A DNA stretch of 44,918 nucleotides. It comes from a virus. Each line of letters begins with the position of its first letter. Positions within the stretch are counted from its first letter, which is position 1. Below the pieces are notes generated by a model. That model did not search any database. It saw only the letters and a program-made list of their open reading frames with translations, and was not told the DNA's origin. Positions 7,347 to 43,736 of this stretch are shown here, in pieces. The stretch covers positions 1 to 44,918 of the IMG/VR virus record IMGVR_UViG_3300043640_000249. One strand, 5' to 3'. The position numbers and the translations under genes were made by a program.

Positions 7347-8218
7347 TCGCCACCGTCCGTGCGGTCGGCCTCGGCCATGAGCGCCACGTAGTCGTCGCGG
7401 TGTGCGCCGTCGGTCAGCTCGAGAATGTCGCGCTCTTCGGGCTCGACCGAGTGGGCGGTGCACCAGCGGGCGTACGCGCGGAGCTGATCGAGCCTGGCCT
7501 GGAGCGCGTCCCGCTCAGCCGAGGCTGAACTTGAAAGGATTTCTTTGGAGTCCAGGGCGCGCAGTGCCGGGGCGTCCAAGGCTGCATCGAGCTGCCCGGT
7601 GATCTCTCGGCGTGTGAGCCGTTTAGCGCCGGTCGCGAGGGTTTCCCGTAGGTCGCGAAGCGCAGTGATCGCGGCGTCGGCTTCGTCGGCCCGCGTCTTG
7701 TGGAGCCACGCTTCTTGGCGCTGAGCCTTGAGGTGGATGCGAAGTCGGCCTGCCTCGGCGAGCCGGTCTTGGGTGACCTGGTGTTCGCCCTCGGCGTGCT
7801 CGGCGCGGCGCTCGGCATCGCCAACGCGGGCGGCGAGGTGCGCGGAGTGCTCCCAGCGGACGGACAGGGCGGCGTCGGCAAGGGTGCCGTAGCTGACCAT
7901 CTGCGGGAGCCGGTCGGCGGTCCCGTGTGCGTTGTAGGCGGCTCGGAGCGCGCTGGCCATCCGGTCACGCGGGTTGCCGGGGTCCTCCAGGAGCACGGCC
8001 ATCACGGCGTCGGCCCGGCAGGGGAAGCATGCCGCGCCGGTGATCGTGTGTCCGCAGACGGTGTTCGCGAGCGCCACGGCAATCGCGTCACGCAATCCGG
8101 GCGCGGTGCTGTGACAGCCGTGCTCGCATAGTCCGCCGACGCAGGATCCGCACTTCCCGTCACGGCAGTCGGGGTCGAGCAGCGGCTCGGGTGCGGTGGG
8201 GTTAGGCATCGTCACCAC
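7343..8218 (-). CDS. Cys-rich, coiled-coil early protein, unknown function
   Basis: This 291-aa protein starts with GTG GTG just at the end of the preceding gene. Residues 15-75 contain a dense set of Cys/His (CRDGKCGSCVGGLCEHGCH, then CGHTITGAACFPC) that could bind two metals. Residues about 110-210 form a long charged helix rich in Glu/Arg/Ala, probably coiled-coil. The C-terminus is helical and acidic. It may be a scaffold or DNA-associated factor; no family was recognised. Confidence 0.6.
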   Translation of the reverse strand: MVTMPNPTAPEPLLDPDCRDGKCGSCVGGLCEHGCHSTAPGLRDAIAVALANTVCGHTITGAACFPCRADAVMAVLLEDPGNPRDRMASALRAAYNAHGTADRLPQMVSYGTLADAALSVRWEHSAHLAARVGDAERRAEHAEGEHQVTQDRLAEAGRLRIHLKAQRQEAWLHKTRADEADAAITALRDLRETLATGAKRLTRREITGQLDAALDAPALRALDSKEILSSSASAERDALQARLDQLRAYARWCTAHSVEPEERDILELTDGAHRDDYVALMAEADRTDGGE

Positions 8219-8421
8219 AAGTTCCCTTCATCATCGGCGAAATCGATCGTCGCCTGCTGCTTCGGCCGGGGCAGGCACGCGGTGCAGCCGAAGTGCGGCC
8301 GCTCGTCGATGCTCCACGTGCCGGGCGTCAGGGCCTTGCCGCAGCGGGTGCGGTCCTCGCGTGTGTCGTCGCGTGTATGGCCGAGGTCGGGGCGGTCCTG
8401 GAACACGATGTGTTCAGCCAC
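8212..8421 (-). CDS. Small Cys-containing protein, unknown function
   Basis: This 69-aa protein starts at GTG 8421. It has an acidic and basic N-terminal half, the pattern GKALTPG and later CTACLPRP, and an acidic C-terminus. CGKA with CTACL gives three to four possible metal ligands. It overlaps the next gene by 7 bp. No function recognised. Confidence 0.5.
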   Translation of the reverse strand: MAEHIVFQDRPDLGHTRDDTREDRTRCGKALTPGTWSIDERPHFGCTACLPRPKQQATIDFADDEGNLW

Positions 8422-28030: not shown

Positions 28031-28966
28031 TCAGCTCATGTCCCAGCCGACGGGGTCCTTGCCCTCGTCGACCCGGGTGAGGCTGACCCAGTCGCCGTCG
28101 GCCGGAGTCTTGAACGACTGGACCGTCTTGGCCGGCCACGTGTCGGTGGCGGTGCGGGGCCCGCCGACCTTCAACGTGAAGACCTCGCCGGAACCGGCCT
28201 TGTGGTGGAACGCCACCCGGACCTCGGCGATCTCCGGGGAGTCGTAGACGAGCCCGATGGCCTTCATCGATCCGCGAGGGAACGAGACGTTGGCGCGCGC
28301 GCCGGCTCCCGCGGGGAGCTGTCCTCCGTAAGGCATGTCTTCCTCCAGTGGGGTTGCCTGCCCGCCGGCGGCGAGCTGGTCGAGAGTGAGAGTCGAGACG
28401 TTGGCGTCATAGGCGCCGCGGAACACGCTGCTGAACTGCCAGATGTGCGGGGCCTTCCAGCCGCACGTGAGACCGCCAGGCAGCCACGGCGAGAACGAGC
28501 CGGGCCATGTCGAGGTGGACTTGCTGCTCGGGTACTGCGGGTACCACCACAGGTCGTAGTGATCGGCCAGGCCGCGGCCGGTGCCGTTGCTGGCATAGCC
28601 CGAGCCCATGTAGATGACCCGCATGTTGCCGCGCGCCTTCTCCTTCAGGCGCGCGGCGAACGCGATCGCCCAGGCGTTCGTCTTGGGCTGGGTCAGGTCG
28701 GACGCTTCGAGGTCCAGGCAGAGCAGGTCGTCCGGGCCCGGCTTCGCGACCGCGAGGAACCGGTCCGCCTGCGAGGCGGCGCTGGAGGACTCCGGCCGGG
28801 CGAAGTGGTACATGCCGACGACCGCAGCGTGGGCGCGCGCGCTGGCGATCTGCGCGGTGTACTTGGCGTTCGTGTACGAACTGCCCTCGGTCGCCTTGAC
28901 GAACACGAAGTCGGCGGCCGGGGCACTGCTGCCCTGGTAGGCCGAGATGTCAAAGCCGTGAAGCAT
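28031..28966 (-). CDS. Endolysin: GH25 (Chalaropsis-type) lysozyme
   Basis: This is a 311-aa protein. The GH25 catalytic domain (residues 1-200) has GFDISAYQG with Asp6, FVFVKATEG, GMYHFARP and LLCLDLEAS with Asp85/Glu87 on the third strand, all at the expected positions. It hydrolyses the MurNAc-GlcNAc bond of peptidoglycan. The C-terminal 110 residues are a beta-rich domain, probably for wall binding. There is no signal peptide, so it needs a holin. The CHAP-like peptidase gene lies immediately upstream. Confidence 0.88.
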   Translation of the reverse strand: MLHGFDISAYQGSSAPAADFVFVKATEGSSYTNAKYTAQIASARAHAAVVGMYHFARPESSSAASQADRFLAVAKPGPDDLLCLDLEASDLTQPKTNAWAIAFAARLKEKARGNMRVIYMGSGYASNGTGRGLADHYDLWWYPQYPSSKSTSTWPGSFSPWLPGGLTCGWKAPHIWQFSSVFRGAYDANVSTLTLDQLAAGGQATPLEEDMPYGGQLPAGAGARANVSFPRGSMKAIGLVYDSPEIAEVRVAFHHKAGSGEVFTLKVGGPRTATDTWPAKTVQSFKTPADGDWVSLTRVDEGKDPVGWDMS

Positions 28967-28969
28967 GGC

Positions 28970-29488
28970 TCACCCCATCCAGCAGGAGTCATCGACCAGA
29001 GAGGCCGGGATCGGGATCCTGATGAACGCGAGGGTCTGAGAGACCGAGCGCTCGCGTTCCCACACGCCGTACGGGCCGCCGGAAGGCTTCGGGACCGTGT
29101 TGAACTCGACGGTCGGGTACGTGCCACCGTGCGCCGGGCCCATGGCCATGACGACGTGGTTCGGAACCCTGTTCGGCTCGAAGTCGAGGAACGCCAGGAT
29201 GAGCTCGCCCGCGTGCTCGACCTCCCAGCCCTGCGCCTGGAGGTGCTTCAGCCAGGACGGGACCCACGCCCAGTCCTTGTCGATGCCGCCGTACAGCTTG
29301 AGTAGTTCGGGCGAGACCTGAGCGGCCGCCCAGATCTGCCCCATGGCGCACGAGTTGCCGGTCCGGTAGTCCGGATCGCCGACCTGCTGGGCGAACCAGG
29401 AGCCGTACTTGGTGACGCCGCTGGCCGGGTACTTGGTCCCGACCTCGCCGAGCAGCACCTTCTTCAGGGCCGCGCGAGGATCGCTCAT
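28970..29488 (-). CDS. CHAP-like cysteine peptidase/amidase (second lysin)
   Basis: This is a 172-aa protein. A likely nucleophile is Cys47 in GNSCAMGQIWAA and the His partner His111 in NHVVMAMG, then a beta segment GTYPTVEFNT, which is the CHAP/NlpC layout. It would cut the peptide part of peptidoglycan while the GH25 lysozyme cuts the glycan. Its start was chosen at MSDPRA (29488) in overlap with the upstream holin-like gene. Confidence 0.65.
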   Translation of the reverse strand: MSDPRAALKKVLLGEVGTKYPASGVTKYGSWFAQQVGDPDYRTGNSCAMGQIWAAAQVSPELLKLYGGIDKDWAWVPSWLKHLQAQGWEVEHAGELILAFLDFEPNRVPNHVVMAMGPAHGGTYPTVEFNTVPKPSGGPYGVWERERSVSQTLAFIRIPIPASLVDDSCWMG

Positions 29489-29790
29489 CGATCCCTCCTC
29501 CTCCTTGGTCGGATCTGGATCTTGTAGAGCAACAGCAGCTGCCAGCCCAGGACGAACGGCAGACCCGCGAACGCGACCAGCCGCGCCACCTGGAACCACG
29601 TCGCATCCGCGCCCGCCAAAACCCCGGCCGACCACAAATCCAGCAGCACCGCGAGCTCCGCCGTGAACGCCATGACGTGCCGGCCCTGCCGAGACGTCCA
29701 CCACCGCGCCGACAGGTGGTAGATCACGCAGAACGTCGTGGCCTCGGCCGCGCACGTCATGATCAGGAGGCTGCCGAGCAAGCGGATCAA
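29485..29790 (-). CDS. Holin-like three-helix membrane protein
   Basis: This 101-aa protein has about three hydrophobic segments (IRLLGSLLIMTCAAEATTF, FTAELAVLLDLWSAGVLAG, RLVAFAGLPFVLGWQLLLLY) and ends in a very basic tail RPRRRRDR, the standard holin topology. It lies immediately before the CHAP-like lysin. Confidence 0.6.
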   Translation of the reverse strand: MIRLLGSLLIMTCAAEATTFCVIYHLSARWWTSRQGRHVMAFTAELAVLLDLWSAGVLAGADATWFQVARLVAFAGLPFVLGWQLLLLYKIQIRPRRRRDR

Positions 29791-29978
29791 CGCGAGTCCC
29801 TGAAGGCGTGGCCGATCGCGTCGGCAAAATGGTTGTGCCGGCGGAGCTGGCGGTGGAGCTCCGCGACTCGCTCGGTCTCCGGGCGCATCTGCTTCGCCTT
29901 CTCGTACCGCTCCTCGGCCGCCGCGAGCGCCTCGTCGACCGGCTTGTCGTCGTCGCGCTTACTCCAGGGCCACCGCAT
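29787..29978 (-). CDS. Small charged helical protein
   Basis: This 63-aa protein starts with RWPWSKRDDD and continues as one charged helix (EALAAAEERYEKAKQMRP, then ELHRQLRRHNHFADAIG). Such small proteins often sit near holins in Streptomyces phages. Function unknown. Confidence 0.55.
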   Translation of the reverse strand: MRWPWSKRDDDKPVDEALAAAEERYEKAKQMRPETERVAELHRQLRRHNHFADAIGHAFRDSR

Positions 29979-30811: not shown

Positions 30812-33592
30812 TCATTGGGCCAGGATCGGGGGCAGGGCGAGCGCGACAGGCTCGTTCGCCGCGTGGGTCTTGATCACGCCGTTGATGCTGCGGGTGACCG
30901 TGAAGGTCTGCGGTGAACTGCCGCCGGTGACGTTGGTGACGGTCATGACCTCACCGCCGATGACGACATCGAACGGCCGGTCACCGGCGTCGATGGACCA
31001 CAACGGCCCCGACGTCGTCTTCACGCTCAAGCTGGTGCCGGTGGTCGTGACGCTGGAGTTCAGCGCGGACCCGGCCGAGGCGAGGCGCCCGAGGACTGTG
31101 TCGTCGAGGCGGATGACCTTCCACGGTTTGCCCGGTGAGCAGTTCGGGATGGCGACCCAGCTGACGGTGTCGATGGTCTCGGTGTAGCCCTCCACGAATA
31201 CGTCGACCTGCCCGGGCGGTAGATCCCGCCCGGGGTTGGTGATCGCCGCGGCGGAGCCGACGTCAGCGGCCGCCCAGTCGGTGATCAGGGACGGCTGGCC
31301 GTTCAGGTTCGGCGTGATCGCCGAATACCGCAGGTCGTCGGCCGTGCCGAGGTGCACACGCCACCCGGCCTGGTGCGGTAGCTGAATGTCGCCTGCGACG
31401 TTGACCGTGCCGGAGTCGGCGTACTCCCCGACCTCATCGATGTGTGCCTGGTCGAGGACACGCGCCGCACTGCCGCCGTTCGCGCGGGAAGCGGTGAAGT
31501 CGTTGCGGAGGTGCTGGTCGTCGTCGGTGGGTTCGAGCGGCGGGGCGACGTCCCCGGCTGCGTAGTCGAGAGTGAAGGTCGGCGTGGCGTTGTAGCGTCC
31601 CGCGCGGGCCTGGTAGGCGAGGCGGCCATCGCGGCGCTCGAACAGGACCCCGCCGTCGGCGGCTTCGCAGTCGCGCAAAATGTCGAGGAAGTCGTTGATG
31701 GGCTGCGGGCCCATCGGCTCAGAACGGCCACCATCACCGACGATCAGGACAGGGATGTTCGCCTCGCTGCTGACCCGCCGGATCCGGTCGGTCGCGCGCT
31801 CTCCAGGGTGCCCCGCGCCGGCATCGAGCAGCCAAGCCAGCGACGCGGCGAAGGCGGTGTTGCTGATGCCCGGGTCGGCGACGCTGATGAACAGGTGGCT
31901 GACCGTGCCCTGAATGTCATGCGGAGTGACGAAGTTGAGGTTGTTCACACCCGCCGTGGTCACCGGGGCGGCAACATCGCCGGGTACGACCTCGGTGGCG
32001 TCCAGGACGCCATTGACGAAGATGTAATAGATCATGTCGCTACCGGAGTTGATAGCGCGCACGGTGACCTGAACCGGGCCCTTGCCGCGAATGTCGACGG
32101 TCCCAATCAGCTGATGACCCAGAAGCGCGAAATGCTCGGTTACCTCGACGGTGACCAGGCCGGTATCCGCATATCCGTTCCACCTTCCGTAGAAGGAGTT
32201 CGGCGTCAACCATCGGATAACGGGTGAGACATCTGTCGCACCCTCGGGCTGTTCTAGCCACCAGGAGACCTGCCAGCCGCCCGTTGACGCCATTCCCTGC
32301 ACGATCGAGAACGTCGAAGATCCGTATGGTGCGGTCAGCGCCCCCGCCGAGCCGGGCGGTCCGCCATCTCCGAAGGACGTAGCGCCCCGCGTCACCATGG
32401 CCGGCCTGTCGAGCAGGCCTGATGATCCGTCCGATTCCAGCGGCCAGTAGGCGTCTGCCTCGCCACGTGAGGTGATCGCCTTGCGCAACGGCGAGTTCAG
32501 CACCCGGCCGCGCGCGAGCCGCCGCGTGATCCCGGCCGCCTCGATCGGCATGTGCTCATCGACTTGGCCGCCCCGGGACTTCGGCGGGAACTCCGACACG
32601 AACCCCCGGTAGCGAAGCCGCCACCCGTCGCCGACGTCGATCCAGTTCTGGATGGGCGTGTTCTTGCTCAACAACCCGTAGTACGGCCCGTTCGGGTTCA
32701 GGCGGACGTACCGGCCCGCGCTGTTGTCCAGCGTCAGGCCCGTCATCGACGACGGGCCCACCGTTGACGTCTCATCCGCGCGGCCGAGTTTGATCGCCAC
32801 ACCGCCATCACGGGGCTGCGCGTCATCGCTGATATCCGTCCACAGGCCCGCCCAGAACGCCGGATCCTGGTTCGGGTTGGCGCCCAACGCCAGCTCGGTC
32901 TTCATCCGCAGCGGCGTCTGCGGGAACGTCACCGAACCGACCGCCGGCTGACGCACCGCAATGGACACCGCAGCCCAGGGAGCGCCAACGGACACCGTCG
33001 CCGTACGCGAGCTCGGGCCGGCCGAACTCAACGTCTGCTCACCCGTCCGGGTGGTGCTGAACGCCCCATCGAGCTCGGCCCGCATGGTCAGCCCGCCGAG
33101 CGTGGTGAAGTTGCCCAGCGCCCCCGACAGCCACGAGCCGATCAGCAGCTCCGTGCCGTCCACCGAATACAGCGGCAGCGGCTGAGCCGTGCCCGCGGTC
33201 GCGGAGGTTGACGCGCCGACACTGAAAACCTCGGCCGCATCCTCACCGTCACGCGTGCCGGAGAGGAAGTACAGGTGCGAGTGGCTCTCGGCGCCGACCC
33301 TGCTGTCGTTGGGCAGCACGATGTGCCGGGTGTCGGTGTCGTGGAACTTGGTCGCCCATACGCGCATGTGTGTCAGGCCATCGCCCGTGTCGGCCTGCGT
33401 GAGCAGTTGGAACGCCCCGACCGGCCAGCCGCCATCGAACGCGCCCGGGTCCGGGCCCATGTTGGCGGCACTCCCGCCGCACATGGCGTGGACGACGATC
33501 ATCCAGCCGTCCAGGTCGCCGCTGATGCCGTTCCAGACGATCTGGTCGGCGCTGGAGACGGTCGAGACGTAGACAGTGACCGTGGCGGCCAT
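30812..33592 (-). CDS. Large minor tail protein (tail tip)
   Basis: This is a 926-aa protein directly after the tape measure and begins one base from its end. The N-terminal region (1-230) is beta-rich and ends in AWAAVSIAVRQ. The middle (240-400) resembles a distal tail or baseplate core (MKTELALGANPNQDPAFW..., ITRRLARGRVLNSPLRKAI). A Gly/Thr/Ser-rich region with LamG-like features (PYGSSTFSIVQGMASTGGWQVS..., FYGRWNGYADTGLVTVEV) lies at about 440-620. The end (700-926) has a strand-rich domain. It should form the tail tip and perhaps bind a receptor. Confidence 0.72.
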   Translation of the reverse strand: MAATVTVYVSTVSSADQIVWNGISGDLDGWMIVVHAMCGGSAANMGPDPGAFDGGWPVGAFQLLTQADTGDGLTHMRVWATKFHDTDTRHIVLPNDSRVGAESHSHLYFLSGTRDGEDAAEVFSVGASTSATAGTAQPLPLYSVDGTELLIGSWLSGALGNFTTLGGLTMRAELDGAFSTTRTGEQTLSSAGPSSRTATVSVGAPWAAVSIAVRQPAVGSVTFPQTPLRMKTELALGANPNQDPAFWAGLWTDISDDAQPRDGGVAIKLGRADETSTVGPSSMTGLTLDNSAGRYVRLNPNGPYYGLLSKNTPIQNWIDVGDGWRLRYRGFVSEFPPKSRGGQVDEHMPIEAAGITRRLARGRVLNSPLRKAITSRGEADAYWPLESDGSSGLLDRPAMVTRGATSFGDGGPPGSAGALTAPYGSSTFSIVQGMASTGGWQVSWWLEQPEGATDVSPVIRWLTPNSFYGRWNGYADTGLVTVEVTEHFALLGHQLIGTVDIRGKGPVQVTVRAINSGSDMIYYIFVNGVLDATEVVPGDVAAPVTTAGVNNLNFVTPHDIQGTVSHLFISVADPGISNTAFAASLAWLLDAGAGHPGERATDRIRRVSSEANIPVLIVGDGGRSEPMGPQPINDFLDILRDCEAADGGVLFERRDGRLAYQARAGRYNATPTFTLDYAAGDVAPPLEPTDDDQHLRNDFTASRANGGSAARVLDQAHIDEVGEYADSGTVNVAGDIQLPHQAGWRVHLGTADDLRYSAITPNLNGQPSLITDWAAADVGSAAAITNPGRDLPPGQVDVFVEGYTETIDTVSWVAIPNCSPGKPWKVIRLDDTVLGRLASAGSALNSSVTTTGTSLSVKTTSGPLWSIDAGDRPFDVVIGGEVMTVTNVTGGSSPQTFTVTRSINGVIKTHAANEPVALALPPILAQ

Positions 33593-38683: not shown

Positions 38684-39150
38684 CAGTTCCGCCGGGTGAA
38701 CGCGTCCACGCTGATGACGACCTGCACGTCAGCTGACGCGCCGCCGTCGGACAGGTACTGCGTCAGGTTCCCGCTCGTCAGCCGAGCCGACAGGACACGC
38801 CTGCCGAGGGTCTGATCACGAGCCAGCTCGGCAGCCATCACGCCGACGAGCTCGTACGCGCGGGCTCGGGCGGCCGCGATGGCCGCCGCGTCATCCTCGG
38901 AACCGTGCCAGCCCGACACGAGGCTGATCACGTCGTACTGCTCATGGTCCGGGCTGCTGGCCATCTGCGCGCGGTCCCGCGTCTCGGTGACCGACGCTTC
39001 ACCGGGTGTGCCGGTGAAGCCGACCATGATGTAGTCGTCGGCGTTGTTCGTCGGCTGCCCGTCGCTGACCTCGGCATCCGGGGCGGCCAGCGCGAACAGC
39101 CGCACCAGCTCGGTGAGGATGGCCGGGACGGTGGAGACGGTGGCGCCCAT
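38683..39150 (-). CDS. Putative tail terminator / neck protein
   Basis: This 155-aa protein has a conserved-type segment NNADDYIMVGFTGTPGEAS and an acidic helix with DAAAIAAARARAYELVG, ending in a strand VQVVISVDAF. Position between the connector and gp10-like protein fits the tail terminator that stops tube growth. Family assignment is positional. Confidence 0.6.
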   Translation of the reverse strand: MGATVSTVPAILTELVRLFALAAPDAEVSDGQPTNNADDYIMVGFTGTPGEASVTETRDRAQMASSPDHEQYDVISLVSGWHGSEDDAAAIAAARARAYELVGVMAAELARDQTLGRRVLSARLTSGNLTQYLSDGGASADVQVVISVDAFTRRN

Positions 39151-39998
39151 CAGCCGACCAGCACATCAGCGGTCGGGTTCTTCCCGAGGCCGAGCAGCTC
39201 ACGCACACGGTTCGGCAGCGCGTACGCGGCGCCCGCGATGACGATGTCATCGCCGCCGGCCACCGGAGGGCGGCCGCCCGAGCCGTTCAGCTTGATCGTG
39301 CGCCACAGGTGCGCGGTGAGCTCGAGTGCGGCAAGGCGGACCTTGGCCGGGACTGGCGTACGACCGGCGCGGTAGGTGACCCGGACCCGTCCGGCCGGCC
39401 ACGACAACGAGTGCGAGAGGAGGCCGGGGCCGGGGTCGAGCTCCCAGCCCTGCACGTCGTTGTCGAGGTCGGCCTGGATGATCGCGTCACCGCCGACCAC
39501 CGCGACCGACGTGATCGAGATGACGGGGTGCTGGTCGAGGACGATCGGGCCGCGGCACCAGCGACGGGGCGTCGTGTCCACGCATGTCGTCGGAGCGACC
39601 GGGCCGATCAGCTCGACGATCTTTTCGCAGCTCGCTGCGATGAACCCGGCCAGCTCGGCATCGTCAGAGGTCTTGACCAGGTCCTTCTTCTGGTGGACCT
39701 TCTGCTCGTGCAGGGAGATGAACGCGCCGTTGTCGGTGGCCTCGACAGTGAACGCGTCGTCGTACGCGCTCGCGTTCGTGCCGGTAGCTACCCAGCGCAC
39801 GGCGTGCGCGCCGGCCTGCACGGTTACGTAGTCGTGGTTGTAGACGCCGACATTGGTTGAGGCGATGGGTCCGGTCACGACCGTCGTGGCGTCCGGGAGC
39901 GCCACCGTCAGCATCACCGCGGTGGCGTCAGCGAGGTTGCCGCCGGCGTCTGTGACCGTCACCGACAGGGGGACGACGTCACCGAGCTGAAAAGTCAT
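39150..39998 (-). CDS. Head-tail connector with N-terminal Ig-like domain
   Basis: This is a 282-aa protein. The first about 100 residues are an Ig-like beta fold (VVPLSVTVTDAGGNLADATA..., ALPDATTVVTGPIAST, HAVRWVATGTNASAYDD). The rest is gp6-like: KKDLVKTSDDAELAGFIAAS, VELIGPVAPTTC, QHPVISITSV, and LAALELTAHLWRTI. The second part makes a ring under the portal; such an Ig fusion is unusual. The ATG at 39998 overlaps the upstream stop (ATGA). Confidence 0.7.
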   Translation of the reverse strand: MTFQLGDVVPLSVTVTDAGGNLADATAVMLTVALPDATTVVTGPIASTNVGVYNHDYVTVQAGAHAVRWVATGTNASAYDDAFTVEATDNGAFISLHEQKVHQKKDLVKTSDDAELAGFIAASCEKIVELIGPVAPTTCVDTTPRRWCRGPIVLDQHPVISITSVAVVGGDAIIQADLDNDVQGWELDPGPGLLSHSLSWPAGRVRVTYRAGRTPVPAKVRLAALELTAHLWRTIKLNGSGGRPPVAGGDDIVIAGAAYALPNRVRELLGLGKNPTADVLVG

Positions 39999-41038
39999 GA
40001 CCCTCCCATCGACGCACCGGCGCGTGTCCGGTTCGTGGTCTGTGCTCCGCGCCGGTCGGCGCCCTGAAGCTGTGATCCCGTACGGACCGCCGCGAGCGTG
40101 TCCGGTGCTGTCCGGTAGACCGCGCCCATCGACCCGCGGGTCACCGGGATCGCAGTCGAGTGCGCCGCGACGATGACCGCCGGGATGGCGCCGGTCGCGG
40201 CCCTCCGCTTGCGCGCGGCGGCCGTGGTGGTCGGCAGGAGCACGCTGAGGCCGGTGACGGCCTGAACGAGGACTCCTGTCCGGTAGGAGGTCGCTACGCC
40301 CGCCGTACGGCCCATGGCGGCCGTGAGCTTGCGCGCCATGCCTGTCGGCACGGCGCCGCCCGCCGCCCTGGTGATGACTGGCAGGACGTGCCGGCCGGTC
40401 GCCTGCGCTGCTGTCGCGCCGGTCGAGGTGGCGATCGCCTTGGTCGTCTTCCTGGCCGCCGCGGTGGCGGTAGCCGGGACGGACGCCTGGGCGGCAACGG
40501 CACGGACCTGCACGCCGGAGTGCCGGGCTGTGGCAGCCGCCGGCGCGCTGCCTGTCGCGGGCGCGCGCTTGGCCGCCGTGCTGTATGCCGCGCCGGAGCC
40601 GGTGCCGCGCGCGGTCGGGGTGAGGACGTGCCGGGCGGTGCCGTACGCGCATCCCGCTGCCCGGCTCGCTGCGGTGGCCGGCGCGGCCTTCCTCGCCGCG
40701 GCGGACGACGTCCCGGCCGCGTAGCCGGTGCCCGAGCCCGACGCCACCTTTCGGGCGGCGCCGGAGGGCGTTCCGGTGAGGGCCGAGCGGGCGGACGCTG
40801 CCGTGGTCCTCTGCGTGGCCGAGGTGGCTGCCAGTGCGGCGCAGGACCGAGACGCGGTCACGGCCGCCTTGCGCGCGGATGCCGTGGCGGCTCCTGCCGC
40901 CGTGCACCGCGCCGTGATCGTTGCGACCTTGCGGACGGTGCTGCTCGAGGTGACTACGGATACGGATCGGCCGGTGTCGGCGCGGGCTTCGGGCGCCCAG
41001 CCGAGACGTGCGGGGATGCCGCTGACCATCGTCGGCAT
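39995..41038 (-). CDS. Ala/Thr/Arg-rich protein of 20-residue repeats, unknown function
   Basis: This 347-aa protein has an exact 20-residue period over about 14 units (residues about 36-315). Many units begin RK or RH and contain TA, SA or AG repeats, for example RKVATITARCTAAGAATASA and RKAAPATAASRAAGCAYGTA. The reading frame fits the operon: it starts a few bases after the SGNH stop and overlaps the connector start. Composition is very basic with few acidic residues. Possible roles are a head-surface fibre, a DNA-condensing core protein or a spacer. Nothing in known families is recognised. Confidence 0.6.
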   Translation of the reverse strand: MPTMVSGIPARLGWAPEARADTGRSVSVVTSSSTVRKVATITARCTAAGAATASARKAAVTASRSCAALAATSATQRTTAASARSALTGTPSGAARKVASGSGTGYAAGTSSAAARKAAPATAASRAAGCAYGTARHVLTPTARGTGSGAAYSTAAKRAPATGSAPAAATARHSGVQVRAVAAQASVPATATAAARKTTKAIATSTGATAAQATGRHVLPVITRAAGGAVPTGMARKLTAAMGRTAGVATSYRTGVLVQAVTGLSVLLPTTTAAARKRRAATGAIPAVIVAAHSTAIPVTRGSMGAVYRTAPDTLAAVRTGSQLQGADRRGAQTTNRTRAGASMGGS

Positions 41039-41042
41039 CAGG

Positions 41043-43061
41043 TCACATCTTCAGGATCGCCAGCTTGGGGCAGGTCCCGGAGACCGTCGCTCCCGCTGGG
41101 AAGTTGCCAGGAAATCCGCCGGTTCCCTGCGACGTCAACAGGTAGGCGATCGGCGTGGTGTTCGACGTAAGCGTGGACGACACCCACGGCATGATGCAGG
41201 TCATGTCCGGGCCGGCCAGCATGTCGAACGTCTGGGATGCGCCTGCGATGATCTGCTTCCACACGATCCACCACAGGCCCGGGTCGAGCGTCCACGTGAA
41301 CGCCCCGGCCGTGGACTGCACGAGCCCAGTCGTCGTACCAACGCTGAACGCGCCGCCGACCGTCGGTTCATCCACGAGGGATTGCGGGTAGCCGGTCCAT
41401 CCCGGGTCATCGAACAGGGCAACTCGGATGGTGCTGGCCGTGGCGGCGCTGGCGGCCAGGCGAAGGGCGAACCGGTTGTACATCTCCCGGCCCTCGGTGA
41501 CCAGGAACGGCATGGCGTACATGCTCTGTGCGGCAGGTAGCGCGGCCGTCGCCGTGGCGGATGCCGCGACGGTGTAGTACTGGGTGCCACCGCCGATCCG
41601 CGGGATACGCGCGGGCCCTGCCTGTGGGGCGGACTGGGCCGTGGAGACCTCGGGTGCTGCCGGGTCTGTCGGAACGAGCTTCGAAATCGCGTTCTTAATC
41701 GCGCGGCCGCAGTATCGGGCGCCGTCCTCGTTCGGGTGCAGGCCATCGGAGGCGAAGCGGGCGGTGGTCTTGTTGAGGGCACCGTCCAGGTCAGCGATCT
41801 GGACCATGCCGGTGCCGCCATCGAACTCTCCGACCACGCTGGCGATCGCGGTGTTCAGGTTCGCGACGTCGGTGTCACCGATGCCGTTCGCGTAGCCCGC
41901 ATACCCGGCGGTGAGCAGGCGCGGCACATTGCAGACGATGACCGGCGCCGGGATCAGGCTCTCCAGCCACCAGCAGTCGAAAATGACCGTGCCGCCCGCG
42001 TCGAACGAGGTGGCGGTGACGACGATGGTCTGTCCCGCGTTCGAGCTGGTGAGGTTCGTGATCCGCTTGACCACCGGAAGGTGCGAGTTCGGCGTGGCCG
42101 GCGCAACGCCGGTCAGGGCGAGCGTGCCGGTGATCCCGGCAGTACCGGAGAACGTCACGGTACCGCCGAGCGTGCCGGGCATCGCAGAGAACTGAATGCT
42201 GACCGGCTCGCCCTTGTAATCGGATGGCAGGGTGATCGTCAGGTTTGCGTTCGTCGTCGACGTTGCCTGCCGGACCGTGCTGCCCGAGCTGAAGTCCTGG
42301 GTGCTGGTGACCTGCGTGAATCCGGCACCGTAGGAGGGCACACCGCCGACGGTGCTGTTGTCCTCGTACACCACCGACGAGCGGGCACGGGAGATCACAG
42401 CGCGGAGAGCATGTTGGAACGCCAGACGGAGCGCGGTCTGCGTTCCGGAGACACCACCGATGTCGTTGATGCCCCACGCGAGGATCGCGCCGCCACCATC
42501 GGAGAAGTACGGGGAGCCGTGGATGTTCGTGCCCGCCGGCGGCGTGCGGGTGAGGGTCTGCATGACCCGGGCCCAGCCGCCCGTCCACACACCCTGAATG
42601 ATCAGGTTCGAGCCGGCGACCGCGTAGTTGGTCCAGTTGGTGTACTCGATATCGAGCATCATCCGCAGGTACGCGTCTGTGCGTCCTGTGGTCCACACGG
42701 TGCCGACGCCCCGTGCGAAGTACGAATGCCCGTACAGCGTCCAGCGGCCTGGAATCACATCAGGCGTGTAGTCGCGGGCTGAGGTGCCGTGGTCGACGGT
42801 CGCGCCGATCGCGTGCGCGACCGCGCTCGTGCCGTCCTGGCCGCGGAGCACGGTCAGGTGCGTGCCGTCGGGGCGGGCCGTGACGGTGACGACCTCTTGG
42901 TCGACCTTCCCCATGTTGATCACCGCGCCGTACGGGAACTGGCCGTCGAGCGCGGAGAACTTCGTACTGTCGACGACGGCCAGCGACAGGCCGCCCGTAC
43001 CGGGGTCGGCCGTCAGTGTCGTCTGGCCCGTCGCCGAGGAGTACGACCGCCCGCCGGGCAT
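41043..43061 (-). CDS. SGNH/GDSL hydrolase structural protein
   Basis: This is a 672-aa protein. N-terminal 100 residues are a beta attachment domain. The SGNH domain follows: block I LYGHSYF with Ser113, block III GINDIGG with Asn199, and block V SDGLHPN with Asp/His near 438. An inserted beta domain (about 235-370) splits the enzyme. A C-terminal beta domain of about 170 residues (ARIPRIGGGTQYYTVAASAT onward) ends the chain. Such enzymes on phage particles remove acetyl groups from surface or wall glycans. The gene lies in the head module, not the tail-tip region, which is unusual. Confidence 0.8.
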   Translation of the reverse strand: MPGGRSYSSATGQTTLTADPGTGGLSLAVVDSTKFSALDGQFPYGAVINMGKVDQEVVTVTARPDGTHLTVLRGQDGTSAVAHAIGATVDHGTSARDYTPDVIPGRWTLYGHSYFARGVGTVWTTGRTDAYLRMMLDIEYTNWTNYAVAGSNLIIQGVWTGGWARVMQTLTRTPPAGTNIHGSPYFSDGGGAILAWGINDIGGVSGTQTALRLAFQHALRAVISRARSSVVYEDNSTVGGVPSYGAGFTQVTSTQDFSSGSTVRQATSTTNANLTITLPSDYKGEPVSIQFSAMPGTLGGTVTFSGTAGITGTLALTGVAPATPNSHLPVVKRITNLTSSNAGQTIVVTATSFDAGGTVIFDCWWLESLIPAPVIVCNVPRLLTAGYAGYANGIGDTDVANLNTAIASVVGEFDGGTGMVQIADLDGALNKTTARFASDGLHPNEDGARYCGRAIKNAISKLVPTDPAAPEVSTAQSAPQAGPARIPRIGGGTQYYTVAASATATAALPAAQSMYAMPFLVTEGREMYNRFALRLAASAATASTIRVALFDDPGWTGYPQSLVDEPTVGGAFSVGTTTGLVQSTAGAFTWTLDPGLWWIVWKQIIAGASQTFDMLAGPDMTCIMPWVSSTLTSNTTPIAYLLTSQGTGGFPGNFPAGATVSGTCPKLAILKM

Positions 43062-43736
43062 CTACACCCCGGTCAGGTCGAGGGTGAGAGCCGAGATGGC
43101 CACGGTGATCTGCCCCGGGCTCGCGAACACCTCAGGGATGACCTTCTGGAAGTACAGCTCGCCCTGGGCGGTGATGTTGATCGCCGAGCCGCCCGAGCTC
43201 GAGGCCACCTGGAACGTATCGGTGGCCGCGCCGACGACGAAGTACACCGCGCCCTCGGCGAGCCCGGTCGGGATGGACTCGGCGAAGACGTTGAAGACCA
43301 TCACGCGGTCGGTGTTGACGAGGCCGTGCGCCGAGCTGGTGATCGTGTCGTTCGTGACGTCCGTCGAGTCGACCTCACCGAAGCCCTTCACCGACCCGTT
43401 GATCGGCGCGTACCCCCGGTACTGCGTGCCGGTGTTGCCGGTGGACGCGTTCCAAAAGCTCAAGAAGGCGTAGGTTCCGGCCGGCACATCGAACGTCAGC
43501 GCCCCGCTGTTCGCCTTCTGGCCGGAGCTCGCCGCACCCCAGGTGACGGCCTGCCGGGCGTACGCCGGGCTGCCGCCGGTGGCCTCCGTCGAAGCGGCGG
43601 TGGCGCCGGTACCCGGCGTGCCGTCCGACGGAGGCGCGGTGACCAGCGTGTTCACGCCGATGTGCGTGATGCCCGCACCGATGGACTCATCGAGACCGTC
43701 GAGCGCGGCGTTCTTCGCCAGGTCATTGAACGGCAT
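43062..43736 (-). CDS. Fibre-like virion structural protein
   Basis: This is a 224-aa protein. Start DLAKNAALDGLDESIGAGIT, then Thr/Ala-rich beta segments, FLSFWNASTGNTGTQYRGYA and a C-terminal part with DTITSSAHGLVNTDRVMVFN and AVYFVVGAATDTFQVASSSG. This is the fold of phage tail-fibre or head-fibre segments. It starts one base after the preceding stop region and ends directly before the SGNH gene. Confidence 0.65.
   Translation of the reverse strand: MPFNDLAKNAALDGLDESIGAGITHIGVNTLVTAPPSDGTPGTGATAASTEATGGSPAYARQAVTWGAASSGQKANSGALTFDVPAGTYAFLSFWNASTGNTGTQYRGYAPINGSVKGFGEVDSTDVTNDTITSSAHGLVNTDRVMVFNVFAESIPTGLAEGAVYFVVGAATDTFQVASSSGGSAINITAQGELYFQKVIPEVFASPGQITVAISALTLDLTGV

Follow-up and report, generated by a model that had tools for sequence, protein, structure and literature searches.

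The window analysed here is a whole IMG/VR virus record, IMGVR_UViG_3300043640_000249 (44,918 nucleotides), from a phage that is a siphovirus, with siphoviral downstream genes for a major tail protein, a tail assembly chaperone and a tape measure. On its minus strand, which the original prediction left unstated, lies a gene, hereafter the repeat gene, whose protein is built from 20-residue units, and which stands, as the original prediction had placed it, between a gene for an SGNH-like hydrolase and the gene for a head-tail adaptor (Table 1). The record breaks off within the C-terminal portion of the major capsid protein (phrog_10), and the repeat gene is located between the capsid and adaptor genes. 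Its ATG at 41038 is found 5 nt beyond the stop of the SGNH-like gene, and its TGA (39997-39995) overlaps the adaptor ATG. A gene for a Gp80-like fibre protein abuts the SGNH-like gene upstream with no gap, and the Gp80-like, SGNH-like and repeat genes form one abutting operon.

Table 1. Features of the repeat-gene locus in the window.
Feature	Coordinates	Strand	Description	Basis
Repeat-protein gene	39995..41038	minus	347 aa	open reading frame; autocorrelation at 20, 40 and 60 residues; codon-position-resolved periodicity
Repeat units	40094..40933	minus	residues 36-315, about 14 units each 20 residues long; two predicted beta strands per unit	
Basic C-terminal tail	39998..40093	minus	residues 316-347, RxGAQxxxRxRAGAxMGG	kept in actinobacterial syntenic relatives
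Head-tail adaptor	39150..39998	minus	directly downstream of the repeat gene, 4-nt overlap	phrog_442
SGNH/GDSL-like hydrolase	41043..43061	minus	672 aa; proposed enzyme payload	PF13472 match below the curated cut-off; phrog_38058
Gp80-like fibre protein	43062..43736	minus	224 aa; extra C-terminal domain of about 90 aa	PF23140

The units run ungapped from residue 36 to about residue 315, with a consensus of roughly RK(V/A/T)A-A-A/V-T-(A/G)-R-S-A-A-A-G-T-A-T-A-(A/T)-A and an arginine at the start of 9 out of 14. Autocorrelation was scored by BLOSUM against shuffled sequences, in 99% of which the highest value across the 69 lags stays at or below 3.9. The repeat protein reached z values of 8.0 at lag 40, 6.1 at lag 20 and 4.4 at lag 60, so the strict period of about 14 gapless units that had been proposed was recovered, including the peak at 20 residues. 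Secondary lags of 8, 12, 28, 32, 36 and 52 are multiples of 4, as an alternating strand-like sequence would give. The low identity between units noted earlier was also seen (about 20% for lag 20 and 24% for lag 40); the repeat is degenerate, strict in period but not in sequence.

At the DNA level, identity at a lag of 60 nt exceeded that of shuffled codons at codon positions 1 (z 3.4) and 2 (z 6.0), with no excess at position 3 (z 0.15), and a lag of 120 gave the same pattern. Since this periodicity is confined to positions 1 and 2, the units are old, diverged duplications under protein-level selection, read in the right frame. The alternative frames are less periodic, and stops interrupt most of them. 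GC content by codon position is 0.65/0.76/0.86, GC3 being highest as in the adjacent genes. The protein carries a net charge of +38, in line with its earlier description as strongly basic, with 27% alanine and regularly spaced RK pairs. It gave no match in Pfam, in PHROGs, in tblastn of phages and viral contigs or in a PDB sequence search, and P0001 gave none in four related bacterial genomes.

AlphaFold, run with five relatives of the same ARK repeat type, predicted two 8-residue strands per unit with 2-residue turns between them, at a predicted local distance difference test score (pLDDT) of 76-88 for residues 51-150 and a mean of 61.8. An unrelated repeat type, from locus L042, was likewise modelled with two strands per unit at low confidence (mean pLDDT 54.4). 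The unit is therefore predicted to comprise two short beta strands, a model that agrees with the earlier suggestion of one structural turn per unit. Foldseek of the repeat model found nothing significant in the PDB and only weak matches in BFVD, while the beta-helix proteins returned by VIA-align, with Z scores reaching 10.6 and a root-mean-square deviation near 9, give no fold assignment.

Relatives were identified using the adaptor as query in place of the low-complexity repeat protein, and more than 60 viral loci and about 30 bacterial-genome matches were obtained. In most loci the gene ending at the adaptor start encodes a repeat protein, with a period of 18, 20, 21 or 24 residues, mostly 20, and its stop falls within a few bases of that start. 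The motifs are unrelated to one another (for example GSATMAGAGALSAAATQ, LADAGAGADALAVAAAVP, TGSGSISLVGSATDSLTFP and KTRTLGQAVETDTAASITR), and a short non-repetitive protein occupies the place of the repeat gene in L047, L048, L050 and L092. The window protein shares the type of these loci in its lags of 20 and 40, its stop over the adaptor ATG and its conserved tail. In ten pairs of relatives the ratio of nonsynonymous to synonymous substitution (dN/dS) was 0.16-0.54; the window, which has no close relative here, was excluded. Together with the codon-position periodicity this upholds the earlier claim of a real coding frame. Ten gaps of at least 10 residues were found among relatives (18, 18, 20, 20, 20, 21, 39, 40, 59 and 81), every one at most one residue from whole units. 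Judged from these alignments, close relatives are under purifying selection and differ in length by whole units.

The original prediction knew of no phage family with this pattern and proposed an undescribed component. Proteins of the same period occur at the same place in many phages, including Hiyaa and Galactica, as well as beside Gp80-type fibre genes, and genes with repeats of about 18-24 residues are common upstream of homologous adaptors. The component is accordingly not undescribed in kind, yet no Pfam or PHROG model matches the window protein. As a side observation, the open reading frame upstream of a distant adaptor homologue in L110 and L111 (Streptomyces and Kitasatospora, in one order or the other) is very rich in His, Arg and Lys, and may be an out-of-frame one.

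The basic tail that follows the units has 12/20 identities to L040 and 9/20 to L105 (p 5e-5 against shuffles in a C-terminal-anchored permutation). The last MGG codons of the tail (ATGGGAGGG) overlap a putative ribosome-binding site of the adaptor, and its final MGG is partly dictated by that putative site. A hidden Markov model built from C-terminal tails missed the window protein, probably through composition correction. The tails in the window and in L053, L272 and L274 resemble a second basic repeat, with a shorter period near 10 residues (as in RVGATMNPNKTLRIGSTILARIRTG, RGMRVDRENRTLRVPRPQR and ENRFVGVPEVERVVSVGDSDRSVAV), which is possibly a virion anchor.

A link to Gp80 is suggested by the gene upstream of the SGNH-like gene. 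Family PF23140, 'Podophage GP4 fiber I protein gp80', has a curated cut-off of 27 bits; the orthologue of the window Gp80-like protein in L267 scores 28.5. The window Gp80-like protein aligns with short Microbacterium and Gordonia phage proteins that clearly pass PF23140 (41-51 bits), and is 37% identical over the shared part to one of them, Magritte gp26 (51.2 bits). Magritte gp26 alone matches PDB chain 8jou_a (E 3.9e-6), one of ten such chains in 8JOU, and a profile of nine homologues including the window protein matches it at 9.5e-9. The window protein alone gave no match in the PDB, nor did a PDB profile search with window-type Gp80 sequences only, 8JOU being found after the short homologues were added.

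Gp80 homologues were then collected from isolate phages with the GP4 segment of the 8jou_a alignment as query. The gene directly downstream showed 20-residue periodicity in 11/11 isolate phages examined. Its best local z was 3.9-10.2, whereas none of 90 other genes from these loci exceeded 3.3. A rank test gave p = 3.5e-8, which overstates the evidence because several of the 11 isolates are related podophages and not independent cases. Such Gp80-adjacent repeats are found in Microbacterium, Gordonia, Mycobacterium, Burkholderia, Pseudomonas and rhizobial phages, and the units of BcepIL02 gp56 and POI1126 gp16 open with basic pairs, as in the window protein. Mass spectrometry detected the Gp80 homologue gp53 in JC1 virions (PMC9144972). 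In Magritte (L271), two adjacent Gp80-like genes, gp25 and gp26 (7522-8231), precede the enzyme-repeat gene, and from this arrangement its fibres may be heteromeric.

ARK-type repeats in other genomes were searched for with a DNA pattern of three RK pairs 20 residues apart (54 N between motifs; at least 120 stretches), and 38 stretches from an off-spaced pattern (52 N) served as control loci, though a rough control only. Of the ARK-type loci with upstream sequence, 8/8 have a Gp80-like gene ahead of the ARK gene, compared with 0/38 control loci. The bacterial genome locus L262 (G181) has the order of the window: major capsid protein, Gp80-like, small genes, SGNH, an ARK-type 20-residue repeat and adaptor. 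In two large viral contigs, L266 and L267, Gp80-like, SGNH and ARK repeat genes occur together upstream of terminase and portal, and no adaptor of the window's family was detected there. From this placement the cassette moves as a unit, independent of the adaptor, which is a neighbour of the repeat gene and not a necessary partner.

The enzyme beside the repeats changes from phage to phage. SGNH-like proteins 37-48% identical to that of the window are encoded immediately upstream of repeat genes in L262, L042, L043, L127 and L202, PhoD stands beside or fused to repeats in L040 and L107, and GDPD occurs in this position in ValentiniPuff and Magritte. This swapping suggests a payload carried on a common scaffold.

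Taken together, we consider it somewhat probable that the repeat gene encodes the elongated backbone, or 'rope', of an enzyme-bearing Gp80-type virion fibre. With two short beta strands predicted for each 20-residue unit, the length of the resulting rod or tape would scale with the number of units, and the Gp80-like protein would decorate this backbone or be strung along it. The SGNH-like hydrolase would be the payload, acting on host surface glycans or esters during adsorption; in other phages a PhoD phosphatase or GDPD phosphodiesterase is fused to repeats of this kind. Through its short basic C-terminal tail the backbone would be anchored to the virion, presumably at the head or neck, or to Gp80. 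The backbone could be shortened or lengthened by whole units and the enzyme would be interchangeable. A bolder extension, possible though not likely, is that the unit acts as a molecular ruler. Each unit would dock a single Gp80 dimer, or else some constant fraction of the fibre repeat, with the number of units setting fibre length and copy number, and with unit sequence and enzyme swapped while the spacing is kept.

Several observations weigh against a Gp80-type backbone. The window Gp80-like protein, at 25.5 bits (E 1.8e-5), falls just under the PF23140 cut-off, and Gp80-like genes were found in only 25/74 adaptor loci, some of which are truncated. Many repeat proteins of the GQAxETD type, and Hiyaa gp13, have no recognisable Gp80 neighbour. 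The two AlphaFold models are of moderate to low confidence and do not include the tail, and neither the repeat protein nor its counterpart in BcepMigl matched any PDB chain. The product of the repeat gene next to Gp80 in JC1, gp54, is absent from the virion list (PMC9144972), which either counts further against the backbone or reflects low copy number.

A possible, though not a likely, alternative is that the protein forms a self-standing fibre or stalk, such as an oligomeric beta-solenoid, that bears the SGNH enzyme, and that Gp80 only shares the appendage operon and is transferred along with it. Two strands per unit, the weak likeness to beta-helix proteins and the conserved SGNH adjacency would all fit such a stalk, as would the many repeat proteins without a detectable Gp80 neighbour and the fusions to enzymes in L040, L107, ValentiniPuff gp77 and Magritte gp27. 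However, the repeat follows Gp80 in every one of the isolates, even without an intervening SGNH gene, and Gp80 directly abuts the repeat gene in L083, L088 and L095.

Less likely by a good measure is a neck or connector accessory, such as a collar or whisker, with the adaptor as its binding partner. The gene end close to the adaptor start in most adaptor loci and the tail conserved among actinobacterial members speak for it, but the L266 and L267 cassettes lie upstream of terminase, away from any detected adaptor, and in Getalong, CELFI and Suerte the Gp80-repeat pair has tail and lysis genes around it. The original prediction had offered a capsid fibre, a DNA-packing internal protein or a spacer, of which a fibre or a spacer is the best fit. 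That the protein is a basic internal or DNA-condensing component of the head is very improbable and was rejected on charge: for all the positive charge and regularly spaced RK pairs of the window protein, body net charge among syntenic proteins spans -49 to +34, so positive charge is not conserved, and the predicted beta fold and the coupling to extracellular-type enzymes also argue against it. Hardly any credence is left for a non-coding or out-of-frame artefact of high-GC DNA, which the extreme composition (alanine content, GC2) and the empty database searches might suggest, as it was refuted in substance by the periodicity at codon positions 1 and 2 only, the tight overlaps with both neighbours, and syntenic relatives with dN/dS below 1.

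One of the closest known systems is fibre I of the Ralstonia podophage GP4 (PDB 8JOU); the window Gp80-like neighbour belongs to or borders the same family, PF23140. In GP4, gp80 dimers are reportedly linked by an elongated 'rope' protein, which is taken here as an unconfirmed lead only. Lessieviruses have the Gp80 closest to that of GP4 among those found, and their gene after gp80 has 20-residue repeats. The window differs from GP4 in being siphoviral, in having an SGNH gene between the pair and an extra domain in its Gp80-like protein, and in its unrelated repeat motif. In the Microbacterium phages ValentiniPuff (gp76-gp77) and Magritte (gp26-gp27), the gene after Gp80 (42.8 and 51.2 bits) encodes a GDPD enzyme that has 40/42-residue (2 x 20/21) repeats; unlike in the window, enzyme and repeat are fused in one protein, and the pair lies after a lysin gene or near capsid genes. 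The Streptomyces phage proteins Hiyaa gp13 and Galactica gp11, annotated as minor tail proteins, have repeats of about 20 residues with basic unit starts as in the window, but differ in N-terminal domains and motif, and no Gp80 match was found among the Hiyaa neighbours tested.

The Alishewanella siphophage LSH1 carries an 'extra structural module' (gp34-gp36) in which three proteins always occur together: a fibril protein of Gp80/8JOU-like type, a payload that resembles an enzyme and whose beta-helical C-terminal part is poorly predicted, and another beta protein (PMC13243795). Its payload resembles a polysaccharide lyase, not SGNH, and the authors report no 20-residue repeat (PMC13243795). 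The turrets of HFTV1 are enzyme-bearing capsid appendages acting on host glycans (PMC12494034), and offer a functional analogy only; they differ in having a deacetylase, a hexamer base and a trimer head, with no repeat rope.

Among the neighbouring genes, the SGNH-like protein scores 28.5 bits against PF13472 (E 2.6e-6), below the curated cut-off of 32.9, and its N-terminal domain resembles the tail-fibre family phrog_38058. The extra domain of the Gp80-like protein, searched alone, has weak matches to phrog_7765 and phrog_9370 (tail-fibre-type) and to Microbacterium and Rhizobium tail proteins. Elsewhere in the window, a 926-aa protein after the tape measure (30812-33592) matches phrog_5313 and partly phrog_24476 (phosphodiesterase), and from these matches is a possible second enzyme-bearing tail protein. 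Two endolysin-type genes lie side by side at 28031-28966 and 28970-29827.

Repeat proteins of this kind are annotated as hypothetical or as 'minor tail protein', and they escape searches because the period alone is conserved. The link to Gp80-type fibres gives a testable function to many such unannotated structural genes, and may explain the poorly predicted tether in phage LSH1. It also points to a way in which phages could alter the length of their fibres and exchange enzymes while the scaffold is left unchanged. If the molecular ruler is true, it would represent a general modular architecture for enzyme-bearing virion fibres, common to podophages and siphophages.
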